Source of the DNA: a virus
Reading direction: 5' to 3' (one strand)
IMG/VR virus record: IMGVR_UViG_3300023118_000015
Location: 1 to 40,478 of that record
Length of the DNA stretch: 40,478 bases
The notes beneath the pieces were generated by a model. That model was not told the origin of the DNA. It saw only the letters and a program-made list of their open reading frames with translations, and searched no databases. Within the stretch, counting starts at the first letter, position 1; every line of letters starts with the position of its first letter. A program made the position numbers and the translations under genes. Shown here one piece after another: positions 7,418 to 38,011 of the stretch.

Positions 7418-7454
7418 TATACCGTTTGGCTGCTTCATAATGCAGGGAGATAAT

Positions 7455-8849
7455 GTGAATAGCGAAGTGGATGTGTGGGCTGATGACTTCATGGGCCGTA
7501 AACCAAGCAGTGATTTTTTGACTAAGTACATTTTAGCCAATGATCACGTAAAAGTCCTCAATGTGAATTCGCCGTGGGGAGCAGGAAAAACATTTTTCTT
7601 AACGCGTTGGAAAGAAGAGTTGAGTAAGTCACACGTGTGTGTGATGTTTAACGCTTGGGAGACGGACTATTCCGCTGAACCTTTGTTAGCGTTAATAACA
7701 TGTATCGAACAGCAGACCAAAGATAAACTTGATATTACTTCATCTGCGACGGGGCGTCATGTTGTTAATACCGGTTCAAAAATTCTGAAAAAAGCGGCGC
7801 CGCTGATAGCGAAAGGATTGGTGAAGAAATTCGTCGGGGTGGAAATAGATGACCTATTTGGAAAAGATACCGGGGACGATACTGCAGATGCAGCTAAGGA
7901 TCTTGTATCATCGTTAATTGAAGATCAGGCGAAGACAGCGCAACATGTAGATGAATTCAAAAAAGCGATAGTGGAACGGCTAAGTAGCTCTGCCCAAAAT
8001 GACGGGCTTTCAAGTCCTGCGTTTATATTTATTGATGAGCTTGATAGGTGTCGTCCGACCTACGCGATAGAGCTATTAGAACGTATCAAACACTTTTTCG
8101 AACTGGATGATTGCCGTTTTATAATTGCTTCGGACTCAAAGCAGCTAGCGCATTCAATTCGCGCTGTATACGGTCAGGGATTCGCTTCGGAAAGATATTT
8201 AAACAGATTTTTCGATGCGGAATTTAGTTTAGATAACAGCAATCCATTTGAATTGGTTCATCGAATTCTACCAGAAATCGACTCCCTTGTTTTGGGTGTT
8301 AATGTTTCCGGGGAACTGCCCAATCACCATTTTCAGCGTGGTGATGTAAAACCTATTAAAAGAAGTACAATTATTAGTCCTATAAAGGGGTTTACGGAAA
8401 ATTCAATTTTTCTAGTTGGGATGTGTAGGTATTTCAATGTTGAGTTGAGGGAGCTTAATAATTATGCTAAGCAAATAAAAAGTGCTGCAGATACAGTTGG
8501 TGAGAAAGTGCACTTTTTTTGGTTGGCATATTTGGTTTTCTTTAAGTCTGTTAGCGGCGAATCTTATCAAGATTTGTGGGTGCCTGAGAAATGGGCAGCG
8601 GCAATCGATGAGTTCGAATCAGTCGGTGCCAAAGATGTAACGTTCTCATTTACCACAAATATGGCGACTGTAAAGGATTTTGCATCTTTTTACTTGACAA
8701 TTTTACACGCTGATCGTGAGAGGCTGCGGGCGATGTCAAGTAATCTAAGTTCGTGGAAGAGTACGATTTATTTTGATTTGATTAATGGGGAAATTGAAAA
8801 GTTAAGAACTTATAGAGGTGTTGTTGAGTTGGCGCATCGCCTAGTTTAA
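7455..8849 (+). CDS. KAP-family P-loop NTPase (prophage-encoded)
   Basis: A 464-aa protein from GTG 7455, chosen for its GGGAG site five bases upstream; an ATG at 7440 has none. Walker A is SPWGAGKTF (39-47), the KAP signature FNAWETDY lies at 65-72, and Walker B is IFIDELDRCRP (191-201). The downstream YGQGFASERYLNRFFD block is also typical. KAP NTPases include PifA, the F-plasmid exclusion protein against T7. The gene is markedly AT-richer than the structural genes and sits between cI and D as a moron. Phage exclusion is the most likely role, but this is inferred. No predicted TM insertion is obvious, unlike some KAP proteins. Confidence 0.8.
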   Translation: MNSEVDVWADDFMGRKPSSDFLTKYILANDHVKVLNVNSPWGAGKTFFLTRWKEELSKSHVCVMFNAWETDYSAEPLLALITCIEQQTKDKLDITSSATGRHVVNTGSKILKKAAPLIAKGLVKKFVGVEIDDLFGKDTGDDTADAAKDLVSSLIEDQAKTAQHVDEFKKAIVERLSSSAQNDGLSSPAFIFIDELDRCRPTYAIELLERIKHFFELDDCRFIIASDSKQLAHSIRAVYGQGFASERYLNRFFDAEFSLDNSNPFELVHRILPEIDSLVLGVNVSGELPNHHFQRGDVKPIKRSTIISPIKGFTENSIFLVGMCRYFNVELRELNNYAKQIKSAADTVGEKVHFFWLAYLVFFKSVSGESYQDLWVPEKWAAAIDEFESVGAKDVTFSFTTNMATVKDFASFYLTILHADRERLRAMSSNLSSWKSTIYFDLINGEIEKLRTYRGVVELAHRLV

Positions 8850-30599: not shown

Positions 30600-30938
30600 A
30601 TGTCACTGGGAAATTTACAGCACCGGGTTAGAGAGTCAGCTCGTATTTTGGCAACTGGTAGAGGCGATATTAAGGATCGTTTAACCGTTGCCATGCTTGA
30701 TAAGTTTTTGCTCGCGAATGTTCCTGATGAGCCGGATCTTCCAGATTATTTCAGGCTTGAAATCGCAGGGATCATCTCTGAACTAACTGTTAAGAGTTGG
30801 AATGGAGAGGACCGATTGCGAGCTACTCTCTACCGCATGCGTCAAAAGACCGCGCAGACGTTCGCAGAGCGAATTTGGTGTTTGCATCATGAACTCGAGG
30901 AGTATCTTCGCAGCGGTTTCATACCTGTCCCCGATTAA
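30600..30938 (+). CDS. Hypothetical protein between Q and yedK
   Basis: A 112-aa, mostly helical soluble protein (MSLGNLQHRVRESARILATGRGDIKDRLTVAMLDKFLLANVPDEP...). A strong AGGAGG site precedes ATG 30600. Its 3' end overlaps the convergent yedK gene by 20 bases. No family recognised. It may be a prophage end gene or the first chromosomal gene after attR; the att site itself was not seen. Confidence 0.65.
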   Translation: MSLGNLQHRVRESARILATGRGDIKDRLTVAMLDKFLLANVPDEPDLPDYFRLEIAGIISELTVKSWNGEDRLRATLYRMRQKTAQTFAERIWCLHHELEEYLRSGFIPVPD

Positions 30939-31641
30939 TAAGTACGAGTTTTAGGGGCAGATCATTGGATCTAGTAATTAAATCCGCTCCCTTGTTCTTT
31001 ACGTTCCCTACGGCGTCGCTGACCTTGAACCATTCAAAGGCCTCGACCGGCTCGCCCTGGTGCAGCGCCATCTGCTCGGCACGCTCTTTTGGCGTTGCCG
31101 GGTCCAGCCATTCGCGGGCAAGGTCCGGCGTCAGTACCACGGGCCTTCGGTCGTGAATATCCACCATGCCGCCGGCACTGTCGGCGGTGATGATCACAAA
31201 TCCGTCATGCTCGCCTGGGCCTTCATCGGCATCTGGTAATTGGCCGATGGCCGCGCAGAAGATCGGCGCGCCGTCCCGCCTGCGGATCAGGTAGGGCTGT
31301 TTCTTCGGTCCACCTTCGTCCACCCACTCAAACCAATTATCGATAGGCGTGATCGCACGGTGTGGCCAGATCGCCCGAAAGAATGGGCCGTGAGCGACCT
31401 TCTCGACGCGTGCGTTGATAGGTGCGGAGCGGTCTTCCGCCCAATGCGGTCGCCATCCCCAACGAACTGGATCAGCGTGCAGCAATTCGCCTTGCAGGTG
31501 CAGCAATGCCACCTGGGTCGTCGGAGCAACGTTGTACCGCTCGATCGGTAGATCCCCCACTGAGTTTGCCAGGGCGTTGGGCATGCTCAGCGCCACAACG
31601 AAGTCATGGATTCCCCTGTACTGCGACAGCCTTCCGCACAT
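30919..31641 (-). CDS. yedK: SOS response-associated peptidase (YedK/HMCES, SRAP)
   Basis: A 240-aa SRAP-domain protein. Met removal exposes catalytic Cys2 (MCGRLSQY); the other active-site residues are visible as N76 (NARVE), E105 (NWFEW) and H163 (DIHDRRP). The family forms a thiazolidine crosslink with abasic sites in single-stranded DNA and shields them. Start 31641 carries an AAGGAGG site. It follows the coiled-coil gene, which lies behind a LexA box, so SOS induction of both is likely. Confidence 0.92.
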   Translation of the reverse strand: MCGRLSQYRGIHDFVVALSMPNALANSVGDLPIERYNVAPTTQVALLHLQGELLHADPVRWGWRPHWAEDRSAPINARVEKVAHGPFFRAIWPHRAITPIDNWFEWVDEGGPKKQPYLIRRRDGAPIFCAAIGQLPDADEGPGEHDGFVIITADSAGGMVDIHDRRPVVLTPDLAREWLDPATPKERAEQMALHQGEPVEAFEWFKVSDAVGNVKNKGADLITRSNDLPLKLVLINRGQV

Positions 31642-31666
31642 AGCCAAATCCTCCTTCCGTTTGATC

Positions 31667-32005
31667 TTAGACAATCGTGTTCGGTCGAGGTCTCATCTCG
31701 TTTACGATTCGCTTCAGGCCTTCGACCTCACGCTGACTTGCCCCCAGTGACGTCGTCAGCGTGTAGATCTGCTTTCGCATCTCAGCCGCTTCGCCGCCTC
31801 TCTGACGGAGGTATCCGGCGAACTCGGTGTTCTTCGCCTGGGTAGCCAGCAGCATCTGACTGATTCCGAAAACATCCTCCCGCGCTTTGCGCAGTTGCAC
31901 GTTCAGTTCCTGGATCTCGTTCTCCAGGAGGCGGCAGTGCTGCCGGTACATTTGCAATGGGGTGGGGAGGCCAAGCCAACCGTGGGTGTCTTCATCGTTG
32001 TTCAT
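31667..32005 (-). CDS. Coiled-coil hypothetical protein under LexA control
   Basis: A 112-aa protein, nearly all one helix with heptad-like spacing (LLENEIQELNVQLRKAREDVFGISQMLLATQAKNTEF and AEMRKQIYTLTTSLGASQREVEGLKRIV). A perfect LexA box lies 17 bases upstream of its ATG, and yedK follows 25 bases downstream, so the two form an SOS operon. No family recognised. A partner of YedK or of replication forks is inferred from the operon. Confidence 0.65.
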   Translation of the reverse strand: MNNDEDTHGWLGLPTPLQMYRQHCRLLENEIQELNVQLRKAREDVFGISQMLLATQAKNTEFAGYLRQRGGEAAEMRKQIYTLTTSLGASQREVEGLKRIVNEMRPRPNTIV

Positions 32006-33062: not shown

Positions 33063-33151
33063 GAGTGGTACGAAAGTGGTACGGCGCTTTCTGAGGTGCG
33101 CTGTAAGCGCTATCACTGTGAGGTTTGTAGGATTAGTGGTTAAATCCACTC
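33063..33151. repeat. Structured ~90-nt element, copy A
   Basis: Two TGGTAC boxes 11 bases apart (33066, 33077), then AATCCACT from 33143. The end sequences GAGTGG (33063-33068) and CCACTC (33146-33151) can pair. An inner GCGCTT/AAGCGC stem is visible. It lies left of the RloAB module and is the most diverged of the four copies. Confidence 0.6.
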
Positions 33152-33264
33152 ATGCAGGTTTTAATTCTATGCAAAGCTAGCAGAAAAATAGGTTTCTTCG
33201 AAAATTAGTATTTCAATCTTGTAGGAAATAGCAGCAAATTTGACTGAAGATGTATTTAAAATCA

Positions 33265-33295
33265 CTCATCATTATTTCACTTAAATAATGATGAG
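33265..33295 (-). terminator. Strong hairpin after rloB
   Basis: A perfect 13-bp stem (33265-33277 with 33283-33295) and a 5-nt loop, 16 bases beyond the RloB stop. The minus-strand tail is TGATTTTAAAT. It probably ends the rloAB message. Confidence 0.75.
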
Positions 33296-33311
33296 CAGTC
33301 TTGAGGCTTCT

Positions 33312-33950
33312 CTATGGCAGTTTCACTATTTTTTGGGGGGCAGATAAAGACTCAAATTTGTCGATCAATAAGTGAATTTCAGTACTAGGGTTTGGTGCGT
33401 TACTTTCTTGAGCATCCTTAAGTACTCTCGGGGACACCTCTCTCGCTTTCTGAAAAGGTTCGCCCAGCAGTTCATGAAAGTAACTGCGATCTTTCCCCTT
33501 GTCATAATCTGCAAGAAGTGGCTGGGCTTTGATCTCTTTTATTACGCATCCTCCGGGCGATAGACGTCCTGTGCGATTGAAAGGTTTTCGGCAATGACCA
33601 AAATGCAGAAGTATCCAAAACTCAAACGAGGGATACGACGGTACTATGGTTATTTTTTTGTGGGCTTTAGCCATGTTTAATGCCCGGTCGAAACATACAT
33701 GACTATCGCGATCAATTGCGCAATAAACTGCGTCATATTTTTTTTGGCGCTCAATGGCATGTGCAACGATGCCGCTCGGGTGCGTAACACCCGCGTGAGC
33801 CACATCTACCAATAAAGCTGCTCTAAAGTAGTCGGCCGCCTCTTGTAAGTACTGCTTGCCTGATTTAGTGTCCTCACAAAGAACCAGTATCTTTTTTTCT
33901 TCAGTATATTTCGGTTCTCCTCTAGCGAAGGAGCTAGCACTTCTGGCCAT
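33312..33950 (-). CDS. rloB: RloB-family protein (AbiLii-like, Toprim-type)
   Basis: A 212-aa protein with the RloB hallmarks: an early acidic motif ILVLCEDTKSGKQYL (E26), an IDRDSH motif (D80, D82) and SYPSFEFWILLHFGHC (E110). These acidic positions fit a Toprim-like nuclease site. Three bases separate it from the upstream RloA stop, so they are co-translated. RloA/RloB pairs correspond to the AbiL abortive-infection system of lactococci. Low GC and its setting between repeat elements support horizontal origin. Function as the effector of a phage defence pair is inferred. Confidence 0.85.
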   Translation of the reverse strand: MARSASSFARGEPKYTEEKKILVLCEDTKSGKQYLQEAADYFRAALLVDVAHAGVTHPSGIVAHAIERQKKYDAVYCAIDRDSHVCFDRALNMAKAHKKITIVPSYPSFEFWILLHFGHCRKPFNRTGRLSPGGCVIKEIKAQPLLADYDKGKDRSYFHELLGEPFQKAREVSPRVLKDAQESNAPNPSTEIHLLIDKFESLSAPQKIVKLP

Positions 33951-33953
33951 TGT

Positions 33954-35225
33954 TCAAACGTCCTTGGTTAATGGGAGGCCTCTGTAGCGACCAGCAAAAT
34001 AGCGTCGCTCTAAATCTTCGCCTTCTCGCCCTTCGAAGTCATGAACGGAAAAAAGCCTCGTGGCGGCATTTTTATCACGTTCGGTAATCCAGAACTGGTC
34101 TCGCCTTAAGATTCTTGACTTCATAAGGTGAGTGTCGTGAGTTGTGAATATTAACTGCGAGTGATGGGTGGATTTAATATGTCTTTTAATTATGTTGGCT
34201 ACAATTTGTGGGTGCAGGCTACTGTCGAGTTCGTCAATGAATAAGGTAAGGTTGTCATCCTTTTTACTTCCTCTTAGTGCGAGTGTTGCCCAAGGTAACC
34301 AGAAGCCAATTAAATTTTTAGTTCCTTCGGATTCCTCTGCGAAATCAAAATTAGCGTCCCCAAGAGCACTTTTATGAATTAGCGTCGTTTTGGTGTCGTT
34401 GTCAAATTCGTCAAAACCTTCTGCATCCAAGATAGTCTTGTTTAGAAGATCTTTATGGCTTTCGTCTTTGGCAGTAATAGATATAGATGATATTGGAATG
34501 TCTACTTCAGCCAAGAAATTTGACAGACTTTCAGCGGTATCCGGAATCATGGCGAGTACTTTTCGGCTAGCGCGAGACCATGTGTCCAAACTGTTCTGGT
34601 CAATGACGAGAAGTGAGTCATCAAACCAGGAAAATGGAATTTTGAGCTGTGTCATATCGTCGCTGCTATTCTGAGCGGCTTGCGCTAGATACAACGACCT
34701 TGGACTGGTGGTTTTTCGCCAAGCTTCGTGAACTTGCTCGCCACCTTCTAAAGTACTACCGAACTTATATGTTTCTTTCTCGTTTACCAGCTCTCGCTTA
34801 AAAAGAAGGCGTTCTTTCCCGCTTGGAAAAGCTGTCAATTCTTCAAAAACGATTCGATTGTTATTTGCACTCAATAAGTACTGGTAGCGCATACCCTTTT
34901 GAATGAAGTGATATTCAAAATTGCTAGGCTCCTCTTCCAGGTCTACGTCAAATCGAAAATAGTCTGCAGTTAACTTTTTATCAGGGCGGTGCGGTGCCTT
35001 AGAAAACACATCTCTAACAAAATCTATTGCCTTGAATAGAGAAGATTTACCTGACGCGTTAGGCCCATATATAGCTGCAACCTTAAGTAAATTTGGTAAT
35101 TTTTCACCTTTGACTCGAGGGGAAATGACATTTTCTCGTTTGCCTAGGCGTGGAGATGCCACCATTGAAAGCGTTTGCCGATCACGAAATGACTTGAAGT
35201 TTGAGACTGAAAATTCGATCAGCAT
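33954..35225 (-). CDS. rloA: RloA-family AAA/ABC-type ATPase (AbiLi-like)
   Basis: A 423-aa ATPase beginning MLIEFSVSNFKSFRDRQTLSM, typical of SMC/OLD-related AAA_15/AAA_21 proteins. Walker A is GPNASGKSS (54-62), Walker B LFIDELDSSLHP sits near residue 340, and a switch histidine occurs in FTTHDTHLM. Such ATPases sense phage or damaged DNA and control a partner effector, here RloB. The ATG has only a weak ribosome site. The gene is AT-rich compared with the phage genes. Confidence 0.87.
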   Translation of the reverse strand: MLIEFSVSNFKSFRDRQTLSMVASPRLGKRENVISPRVKGEKLPNLLKVAAIYGPNASGKSSLFKAIDFVRDVFSKAPHRPDKKLTADYFRFDVDLEEEPSNFEYHFIQKGMRYQYLLSANNNRIVFEELTAFPSGKERLLFKRELVNEKETYKFGSTLEGGEQVHEAWRKTTSPRSLYLAQAAQNSSDDMTQLKIPFSWFDDSLLVIDQNSLDTWSRASRKVLAMIPDTAESLSNFLAEVDIPISSISITAKDESHKDLLNKTILDAEGFDEFDNDTKTTLIHKSALGDANFDFAEESEGTKNLIGFWLPWATLALRGSKKDDNLTLFIDELDSSLHPQIVANIIKRHIKSTHHSQLIFTTHDTHLMKSRILRRDQFWITERDKNAATRLFSVHDFEGREGEDLERRYFAGRYRGLPLTKDV

Positions 35226-35620
35226 TCTGAAAATCCGTTGTAGCGAGGGGTAGAGATCTCACAGTAGGCCAAAAATCGCGCCTAGGTGCAATTTTTTTGC
35301 ATTTGGACCTCGCGGATGCTTCATGTGTTTTCGGCAGGGCATATCTCGACCTTCGCCAGATCGAGCACCTTTCAGCGGTCGAACGATGATCGCTATGTTC
35401 AGCCTACTCATTGCTTCCAGCCAATATCTGATAGTCAGTGGCCTATCCCTGCTGGTCGAAAAAGTTGTGTTTGACTCTAACTGATTTGAGCTGTGAGCTG
35501 GTGCCTCTCAAAAATCATTGACCTGTATTAGAGCGTTGTGCTGCACAGGCAGTCGCCGACAGGAACGAAATACATCGGGGTTGATGAGGTTAGCAAGAAA
35601 ATAGCGAGATTTTTATGCGA
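35226..35620. other. Non-coding stretch upstream of rloA
   Basis: About 395 bases with no supported gene. It presumably contains the rloA promoter near its left end. Short frames are present but none has a ribosome site or a recognisable product. Confidence 0.4.
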
Positions 35621-35710
35621 GGTGGCTGGTACGAAAATGGTACGGACGGTTAGCTATGGCGTCGTAATGCCCAGGGTGTTGAGCCTCGAGGTTTAGGCGC
35701 CCAATCCATC
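35621..35710. repeat. Structured ~90-nt element, copy B
   Basis: TGGTAC boxes at 35627 and 35638 (same 11-base period as copies A and D) and AATCCATC at 35703-35710. GGTGG (35621-35625) can pair with CCATC (35706-35710) with one G-U. The inner segment GGACGGTTAGC...ATGGCG aligns well with copies C and D. Confidence 0.65.
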
Positions 35711-35912
35711 ACACGGGGTGTGATCGTCCAATCTGACGAAAACTGCAGACTTTCGATGTGATTCACGGCGTCCTCTAACGGTTGGCCGTCCGTTTTGTCT
35801 TTGCCTTGGGCAATTCGCCTAGCGGTGACATGATTTCCATTGAATGTGCGTCTTGGGCAGATAGGCCGATCGCTTTTGTAGAGGTTTAGGGCAGATCTTA
35901 ACGCATGGTTAG

Positions 35913-36002
35913 GATGGCGATACATAAGTGGTAGAGACGGTTGGCAGTGGTGATGCACTGCCGGTGCTACAGTGCCTGTAGACTTAAGCGTTCAAATCCA
36001 TC
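35913..36002. repeat. Structured ~90-nt element, copy C
   Basis: GATGG (35913-35917) pairs with CCATC (35998-36002). Inside are a perfect 7-bp hairpin GGCAGTG/CACTGCC (35943-35949, 35956-35962) and a perfect 6-bp hairpin CTACAG/CTGTAG (35967-35972, 35976-35981). The end GTTCAAATCC is identical to a tRNA T-loop. It is the best structured copy, though its TGGTAC boxes have decayed to CGATAC and TGGTAG. Confidence 0.65.
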
Positions 36003-36078
36003 ACCGGTAAAATTTTTGATTTTTTGCCTAGCTAGCAACAATCGGTCTAGGCTTACAGCCTCCGGCTGAAAATTCTAG

Positions 36079-36109
36079 ATGTTGCCTGTTTCTTCTAACT
36101 CGGCAACAT
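36079..36109 (-). terminator. Hairpin downstream of the RelA/SpoT-domain gene
   Basis: An 8-bp perfect inverted repeat ATGTTGCC (36079-36086) / GGCAACAT (36102-36109) with a 15-nt loop, 30 bases beyond the stop codon at 36139. The minus-strand tail contains AATTTTC. A terminator role is likely but the loop is long. Confidence 0.5.
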
Positions 36110-36138
36110 GGATAAAACACTATTAATATAGGATTCGA

Positions 36139-37095
36139 TTACCTTGCCGAGTATCTAGTCCTTAAAAAATCGCTGACGTTTTCGCTTCCGAACTCGTTGC
36201 GAAGACCCTCTCTAGCAAGTCCCACATTCATAAAGTACTGACCTGATTGGCGATGGTGTTCTTTTGCTTTTTTTGCGTCTTCCAGCATTATAGATTTCAT
36301 GTGCTTATTCATGATGCGCTTTAGTTCGCCAGCTGTTTTAACACCAAAGTGATTTAGATCAGTCACAAGTTCGTCATACGGCTCGTTCTCGCGTTTAATA
36401 CGACCGGGAAAGATTTCTGAAAGAGCGGAGTCTAAAACCTCAACGTTTAGAGGTGTTTCAGAGTTCTCATACTTCATCTGGCCTTGCACATAAAATTCAC
36501 GATCTTCCAGAAGTCGATCAAATTCTAGATCCACTGTTTCTAAAAGCGCTGAAGCACGATTTATGGAGCGGCGTAGTGGAAGCGGTACACTCGCCTCGTG
36601 CTTATATTGGAGCTTATGAGAAGCTGCGGCCCAAATATGTTGCGCTAACGTTCTAACTTGAATTTCAACGCGTATACCTCCCAAATCGCCCCAGCTTGGT
36701 ATTTCTAGCCAAGTCTCCGGCACCTCAATTATGTAGTGTTGCGACTGATAGCCAAACTGAGTGTCGGCTAGTCTTAAGGAAGTATCCTCAGAGCTTTTTA
36801 TATTCAACGCATTACGAAGGAGGTTGTCGACGGCAATAAGGTCTCGCCGAAATAGCAAAATCAAACGAATTCCGATAAAGTCATCTAGGTCTTCAATATT
36901 GTCGAGAACAAGGGATTTTCTGCTTATTTTTTCTTCTATAGATGACCATTCTTTTACTCTCGCCTCGATGGGGACGCCCAGTGTCACTCCCTCTTTTTCA
37001 AGGAGGTGGTTCAGCTCAGTAGATAGTGCTGACTGTAAACGTTTTGCACGAGATTCGACTCGAATATATTTGAGTTTTAATTCCGAGAGATTCAA
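36139..37095 (-). CDS. Stand-alone RelA/SpoT-domain (p)ppGpp synthetase-like protein
   Basis: A 318-aa protein with an intact synthetase domain and no hydrolase domain. Visible motifs are EARVKEWSSIEEK (R46, K48), DDFIGIRL (71-78), the G-loop FGYQSQH (114-120) and VEIQVRTLAQHIWA (143-156). A charged ~130-residue C-terminal extension follows. The family includes housekeeping small alarmone synthetases and toxic toxSAS/CapRel proteins that pyrophosphorylate tRNA or make toxic alarmones. The setting in a defence-like island favours the latter. The TTG start has an AAGGA site. No TGS or ACT domain is present. Confidence 0.85.
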   Translation of the reverse strand: MNLSELKLKYIRVESRAKRLQSALSTELNHLLEKEGVTLGVPIEARVKEWSSIEEKISRKSLVLDNIEDLDDFIGIRLILLFRRDLIAVDNLLRNALNIKSSEDTSLRLADTQFGYQSQHYIIEVPETWLEIPSWGDLGGIRVEIQVRTLAQHIWAAASHKLQYKHEASVPLPLRRSINRASALLETVDLEFDRLLEDREFYVQGQMKYENSETPLNVEVLDSALSEIFPGRIKRENEPYDELVTDLNHFGVKTAGELKRIMNKHMKSIMLEDAKKAKEHHRQSGQYFMNVGLAREGLRNEFGSENVSDFLRTRYSAR

Positions 37096-37354
37096 GTGAA
37101 TATGTCCTTTTTATGTTTTTATCTTTTGCCTTTGAGGCAGTCTTTAATGTGCATCAGTTAAAAGTTGAAAAATCCAGCAAGCCACGCTGAAATCTTACAT
37201 GCCAATAGATGCTGTTAATATGCCTCGCTGTCGATTGCGACAAGTTTTTTGAAGCAGCAGCAATTTCAATACTTCGTTCATACTAATGATCGTGACCGGT
37301 AGCATCCGAAGACCCTAGATTGGTGGGTAATCCTATGCGACTGTCAACTGCCAT
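37096..37354. other. AT-rich gap upstream of the RelA/SpoT-domain gene
   Basis: About 260 bases with no supported ORF. It should contain the promoter of the RelA/SpoT-domain gene. No obvious antitoxin frame of useful length was seen. Confidence 0.4.
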
Positions 37355-37570
37355 TTAAGTGGGGGGCTGCCGTATGAGTAGAGCCAGGCCTTGTTTGATA
37401 TGGCCTGCGTTTTCACCAATTGTGTGAAGTGCCCCCCGAACATTGTCACCAACCTCTAAAGAATTTTGCTTCTCAGCCCAAAGAGTCAGCTCCATTACTG
37501 CCGCTTCGAGGGCGAGTTGATTTTGATAAAGCCGTTCCAGCACGTCCGGTAATGAGTATTCGCTTGCCAT
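37355..37570 (-). CDS. Small helical hypothetical protein
   Basis: A 71-aa protein (MASEYSLPDVLERLYQNQLALEAAVMELTLWAEKQNSLEVGDNVRGALHTIGENAGHIKQGLALL), predicted as two to three amphipathic helices. It resembles small proteins of unknown function common in Pseudomonas. It lies upstream of the RelA/SpoT-domain gene on the same strand, about 260 bases away, and immediately downstream of element D. An antitoxin role is conceivable from position, but nothing in the sequence proves it. Confidence 0.6.
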   Translation of the reverse strand: MASEYSLPDVLERLYQNQLALEAAVMELTLWAEKQNSLEVGDNVRGALHTIGENAGHIKQGLALLIRQPPT

Positions 37571-37662
37571 GGTTTGCGGCTCGTTTCAAAAAAATCAAGC
37601 ATAGCAGCGGTATTCCCCTGATTTGCGAAAATCAGCAAAAAACGAGTGTGGGTGGGAGTATT

Positions 37663-37749
37663 GGTGGTACGAAAGTGGTACAGACGGGTCGCAATGGTGC
37701 TGTAACCCACGTTTTGTAGGAGCGGTGGGATTAGTCGTACCAATCCATC
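37663..37749. repeat. Structured ~90-nt element, copy D
   Basis: TGGTAC boxes at 37665 and 37676, AATCCATC at 37742-37749, and end pairing GGTGG (37663-37667) with CCATC (37745-37749). The inner CAGACGGGTCGCAATGGTG aligns with copies B and C. It bounds the RelA/SpoT-domain segment on the right. Confidence 0.65.
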
Positions 37750-38011
37750 ATCGGGGCGACGGAGAAGCGGCGGGAGAGTGACTTCGGTGAGGCGCTGATC
37801 AGGGGCATTGGACAATCTGAGTGGGTAGGGCGGAATGCGTGAGTTTATCAGGAATGGGCGTGCAGGTTTTGTGCTCAGGCTGAGAGGGTTCTTCTGTCCA
37901 TAATGCGACTGCGGCCTTGGCGTTCGACGTTGACGAACCCGGCGAGTGAAGGGGGAAGCATGCGTGCTGTTTTCAGCAAAAAATTACCGTGAAAAAAGGC
38001 AGGCACGGTGC
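37750..38011. other. Non-coding stretch right of element D
   Basis: No supported gene. It is the transition from the accessory island to chromosomal DNA, and no clear direct repeat or att core was found in it. Confidence 0.35.

Follow-up and report, generated by a model that had tools for sequence, protein, structure and literature searches.

What does a prophage gain from a lone alarmone synthetase? Phage RelA/SpoT defence effectors are known mainly in two forms, one that works with a separate antitoxin and one in which the enzyme is fused to a tail, as in CapRel. The gene called rel here fits neither form. It is found in a 40,478-nucleotide stretch of viral DNA (the window), and it belongs to a family carried by many unrelated phages and marked by a conserved tail that is particular to it. 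The reading to which we lean, while giving it somewhat less than an even chance, is that rel is a one-gene, prophage-borne alarmone synthetase used in abortive defence, with its helical domain as a built-in regulator or sensor. Core, tail and full-length protein can each be tested on their own, which brings the question within direct reach. The features of the locus are listed in Table 1.

Table 1. Features of rel and the surrounding island (positions in the window)
Feature	Position	Strand	Basis
rel, orphan RelA/SpoT-type synthetase, 318 aa, TTG start	36139..37095	-	ORF, Pfam, family alignments
Synthetase (SYNTH) domain, residues 1-202	36490..37095	-	Pfam, profile and structure alignments
C-terminal helical domain (predicted), residues 203-318, six helices	36142..36489	-	AlphaFold, family alignments
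Ribosome-binding region AAAAAGGACATATTCAC, directly before TTG	37096..37112	-	read directly
71-aa ORF (phrog_12397), adjoins att site, outside the rel system	37355..37570	-	profile match, genome survey
dusA-type att site, upstream of rel, overlaps interrupted dusA 5' end	37663..37775	-	nhmmer, E 4e-18
dusA start cut short, reads ...SRRFSVAPMMDWYD*	37734-37802	-	read from sequence
dusA-type att remnant, just downstream of rel	35919..36008	-	nhmmer, E 1.8e-6
dusA-type att element	35712-35625		nhmmer
AAA ATPase (PADLOC AbiLi) of AbiL-like pair	33954-35225		
RloB protein (PADLOC AbiLii) of AbiL-like pair	33312-33950		
dusA-type att element	33152-33063		nhmmer

The catalytic core and its nearest kin

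The TTG start of rel is preceded by a Shine-Dalgarno-like AAGGA, and a promoter scan gave matches at chance level only. An earlier note on this DNA, made from the sequence, held that the synthetase motifs are intact and that the enzyme is an orphan without a hydrolase. Both points stand. Pfam RelA_SpoT matches residues 46-167 with 70.7 bits (cut-off 27), and the motifs RVKEWSSIEEK, DDFIGIR, FGYQSQH, EIQVRT and HKLQYK can be recognized. Residues R46, K48, D72, R77, G115-Y116, S118, H120, E144, Q146 and R148 are invariant in 48 homologues, and so are H160, Y164 and K165. A search for a hydrolase domain (HD_4) across the window found none. With a SYNTH domain, the catalytic residues and no hydrolase, the protein is a RelA/SpoT-type small alarmone synthetase, and its motif residues indicate that the gene is catalytically intact. 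An AlphaFold model of the full protein, built with the 48 homologues, has a mean pLDDT of 92.9. The dN/dS ratio is about 0.05 for residues 1-202 against the 78%-identical relative L012. No ratio was obtained for the tail, where dS is saturated.

Which known enzymes does this core resemble? It is nearer to RelQ/RelP than to CapRel. The profile match is E ~1e-32 for RelQ/RelP versus 5e-7 for CapRel, and the structural Z is 17-18 for RelQ/RelP, 13-14 for bifunctional Rel and CapRel (CapRel itself 13.2) and 7.8 for FaRel2. RelQ (YjbM) and RelP (YwaC) are chromosomal housekeeping genes of Firmicutes. Their products have the synthetase fold, the catalytic residues and the long C-terminal helix in common with the window Rel, in which this helix (residues 172-205) lies mostly within the SYNTH domain. 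RelQ also carries HxxLxYK (as HSLNYK) after its WA motif, as does the window Rel. However, RelQ and RelP end near residue 200-230, lack the 116-residue helical domain, and align structurally to the window Rel only up to residue ~205. The earlier note would have counted its proposal refuted had the extension aligned along its length with housekeeping small alarmone synthetases, and this did not occur. Nor is the protein a RelQ/YjbM equivalog, its score against NCBIfam NF053588 being 74.3 bits where the cut-off is 320.

CapRel-SJ46 is a phage-encoded RelA/SpoT defence protein for which the residues R79, R116 and Y155 and a C-terminal YXXY switch motif have been described (PMC9712102). Like the window Rel it is prophage-borne and joins a synthetase and a C-terminal domain in one polypeptide. 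Its sequence was taken from its own phage genome (L098:2944-4065). R46, R77 and Y116 of the window Rel pair with the three CapRel residues. However, the two cores are only 22% identical, over 119 residues only, and alignment of the family profile to CapRel-SJ46 stops at residue 208, covering the catalytic domain alone. One clue to the substrate is the HxxLxYK motif. Because it is found in RelQ and in the rel family and is missing in CapRel, a nucleotide acceptor is favoured over tRNA, short of proof.

The rel family is already catalogued in PADLOC as a candidate, since all 48 aligned members match PDC-S33 (best E 2.5e-22). The window protein matches this model (PDLC04999) with E 7.6e-14, covering only positions 63-177 of the 349 in the profile, which is the catalytic region. 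A search of the paper library used here found none on PDC-S33. The window Rel adds a member to a family that is catalogued but uncharacterised, and it may bring a new regulatory domain.

The C-terminal extension

The earlier note saw about 130 charged residues after EIQVRT. There is indeed an extension, but its size and character are different. The motif is followed by 169 residues, about 53 of them completing the synthetase fold, and the extension proper has 116. Because these 116 include 18 basic (K/R) and 18 acidic (D/E) residues, which is not unusual, the description "charged tail" undersells them. Structure prediction, which the note had proposed, gave six helices at pLDDT 89.4 when the tail was modelled alone by AlphaFold. 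In other words, the extension is predicted to be an ordered helical domain.

This domain is kept in 25 of 26 close family members, the exception being L062, which is shortened. Within the family, at 41% identity or more, the kept motifs are LNVD, P230, E238-x-Y240, L243, H/N290-x-G292-L293-x-R295 and EFG at 301-303. The tail diverges in distant members, though G292 and R295 are still common. Family alignments show it travelling together with the catalytic domain.

Searches of the tail against solved structures stayed at noise level, both with Foldseek (best E 0.97) and with VIA-align (best Z 4.3), and Pfam returned single chance matches only. An AAA+ ATPase fold (scattered weak structural matches) and a death-effector domain (a weak match, E 0.11, among PDB sequences) were also considered, and both were dropped as noise. 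The tail is without a detectable known counterpart, and a missing match is not proof of a new fold.

The earlier note had brought up CapRel-type toxins in connection with this tail, and such a kinship is not supported. An hhalign comparison with the CapRel-SJ46 tail gave a probability of 0.3% (E 0.18), and YXXY is absent from the C-terminal regions of all 26 close members. The CapRel tail is known for a pseudo-zinc-finger fold with beta strands; the window tail is predicted to be all-helical, which may set the two apart. Membership of the CapRel group was rejected because the tail is unrelated in sequence and has no YXXY.

Relatives, neighbours and the dusA island

About 25 relatives that keep the extension alongside the catalytic domain (41-76% identity) are spread over phages, prophages and bacterial genomes. 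By protein and profile searches, close full-length relatives turned up in many viral contigs and in bacteria such as Pseudomonas, Massilia and Polaromonas. Identity to the window Rel is 78% for L012, 66% for L013, 65% for L014 and 54% for L002. Viral contigs carry about 20 relatives at 41-78% identity and about 30 more distant ones. Matches at 1e-25 or better were found in 12 of 399 Pseudomonas genomes, and close ones in 4 of the 399. Distant relatives reside on a 3.5-kb Klebsiella plasmid and in a Mycobacterium abscessus prophage. Others are carried alone, in a filamentous Vibrio phage (L025:4986-5996) and, beside terminase genes, in a Bacteroides phage-plasmid (L026:5016-6089). A separate curiosity is a single long frame in a Ruminococcus MAG (L010:4170-7112), an unusual fused alarmone enzyme. 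Read by eye, it has a RelA/SpoT synthetase that comes after an apparent HD-hydrolase-like stretch and before a long repeat-like region ending in a RyR-like motif.

Does rel have a partner? No close neighbour family recurs in 25 neighbourhoods outside one shared phage backbone, which bears out the earlier remark that no adjacent antitoxin is obvious. The recurring close neighbours (an integrase, a 230-aa gene, an HNH gene and a terminase) are confined to four phages with that one backbone. The conserved adjacent antitoxin gene of a bicistronic toxSAS is not found. The relatives have ordinary phage or host genes next to them, among these integrases, terminases and portal genes. PADLOC model matches among the neighbours were few of 48 (PDC-S15, IetA-like), and no enrichment of defence genes is claimed. 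rel exceeds its own locus in AT content at every one of the 24 loci compared; in L012, for example, the G+C content is 0.42 for rel versus 0.53 for the locus. Such a pattern fits an accessory unit made up of one gene.

In the window, rel is located in a small accessory island where a Pseudomonas prophage has integrated at dusA, a gene whose 5' end one integrase family is known to target (PMC4482086). An nhmmer profile of the att site, built from other phages only, detected four degenerate dusA-type att elements in the window, which span 33063-37775. rel and the 71-aa gene lie between the elements at 37775-37663 and 36008-35919 (Table 1), and an AbiL-like pair lies between the other two. The phrog_12397 gene sits just inside dusA-type att sites. 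Two att copies are present in the corresponding region of G175 (L105), G238 (L107) and G197 (L108), and in G247 the dusA frame is uninterrupted, 4.7 kb from the shared wzz flank. The simplest reading is that att-flanked cargo was gained serially at dusA.

Two further genes lie beside the structural genes. At their other end, in a low-GC stretch, a 469-aa protein (7440-8849) matches the PADLOC candidate PDC-S20 (E 3.5e-86) and has weaker similarity to PifA/QatA; here the prophage probably has another accessory slot for defence. The portal end is adjoined by a phage SRAP (SOS-response associated peptidase) gene at 30919-31674.

Possible functions

How might rel protect a lysogen? Rel would move pyrophosphate from ATP onto a free nucleotide, yielding (p)ppGpp or (p)ppApp. 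The helical domain might silence Rel in the lysogen, or it might sense an infecting phage and release the activity. Growth arrest would then block the incoming phage, as superinfection exclusion or abortive infection. We infer this role with CapRel and Phrann gp29/gp30 as analogues; for the latter, prophage defence by growth arrest has been proposed (PMC9262239). The synthetase of the Phrann pair, PhRel, is prophage-encoded like the window Rel. However, PhRel works with the separate partner gp30, whereas the window Rel has no partner gene, and PhRel was not among the tblastn matches of the window Rel in the phage collection (1e-5).

Several observations speak for defence, namely the intact, RelQ/RelP-like core, the helical domain conserved with it, the AT-rich lone gene without a regular partner, the phage accessory slots, the AbiL-like pair nearby, the PDC-S33 matches of all 48 members and the precedents of Phrann gp29/gp30 and CapRel-SJ46. 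Others count against it. Most genes next to the relatives are ordinary phage genes and few are defence genes, PDC-S33 is a candidate label matched only in the catalytic region, and the accessory-island context is that of one locus. A bolder proposal is that the six-helix domain is a new autoinhibitory, phage-sensing module. The widespread rel family would then be a second, independently evolved kind of single-polypeptide RelA/SpoT immunity protein, one that is alarmone-based rather than tRNA-modifying. We regard this as doubtful, but if the tail is a switch, alarmone-based immunity in a single protein would have had more than one origin.

What if rel has nothing to do with defence? It could serve in lysogenic conversion, with a product that makes (p)ppGpp constitutively or in response to growth and thereby adjusts the physiology of the host or the stability of the prophage. 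A RelQ/RelP-like core without an antitoxin would suit such a role, as would the many relatives set among ordinary phage genes, and host SpoT could degrade the alarmone product. However, the patchy spread of an AT-rich single gene (the 12 of 399 Pseudomonas genomes) and the island site near AbiL-like genes are more in keeping with defence or competition. On balance this explanation seems unlikely.

Perhaps, instead, Rel is a translation-blocking toxSAS like CapRel and FaRel2, which pyrophosphorylates the 3'-CCA ends of tRNA and has its C-terminal domain as a fused antitoxin. The size class, the layout and the prophage location are those of CapRel, and the alignment of R46, R77 and Y116 with CapRel R79, R116 and Y155 appears to point the same way. 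However, these three residues are equally common to RelQ, the core is closer to RelQ/RelP by profile and by structure, and the predicted all-helical tail shares neither sequence nor YXXY with that of CapRel. A tRNA-directed toxin is rather unlikely.

The earlier note suggested that either the extension or the 71-aa gene might act as antitoxin. The first suggestion survives, in that the conserved C-terminal domain could regulate. The second does not. A two-gene toxin-antitoxin system would agree with the position of the 71-aa gene, which adjoins rel on the same strand. However, 169 of 299 Pseudomonas genomes contain this gene, against 4 of 399 with a close rel gene, and the Pseudomonas phages VW-6S and phiAH14b have it with no rel match. 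Conversely, L012 and L014 have no 71-aa gene upstream of rel. In G197, where a related prophage located by the same MFS gene has a rel of 66% identity, two att repeats enclose the 71-aa gene but not rel. The occurrence of the two genes is unlinked, which refutes a conserved pair. The 71-aa gene is an att-linked phage gene and not an antitoxin, and a two-gene system is very hard to credit.

Equally far-fetched is the idea that rel is a decaying remnant without function, as the degenerate att remnants in the island and the shortened L062 might hint, given that the frame is open, all catalytic residues are present and the dN/dS of the core against L012 is so low.
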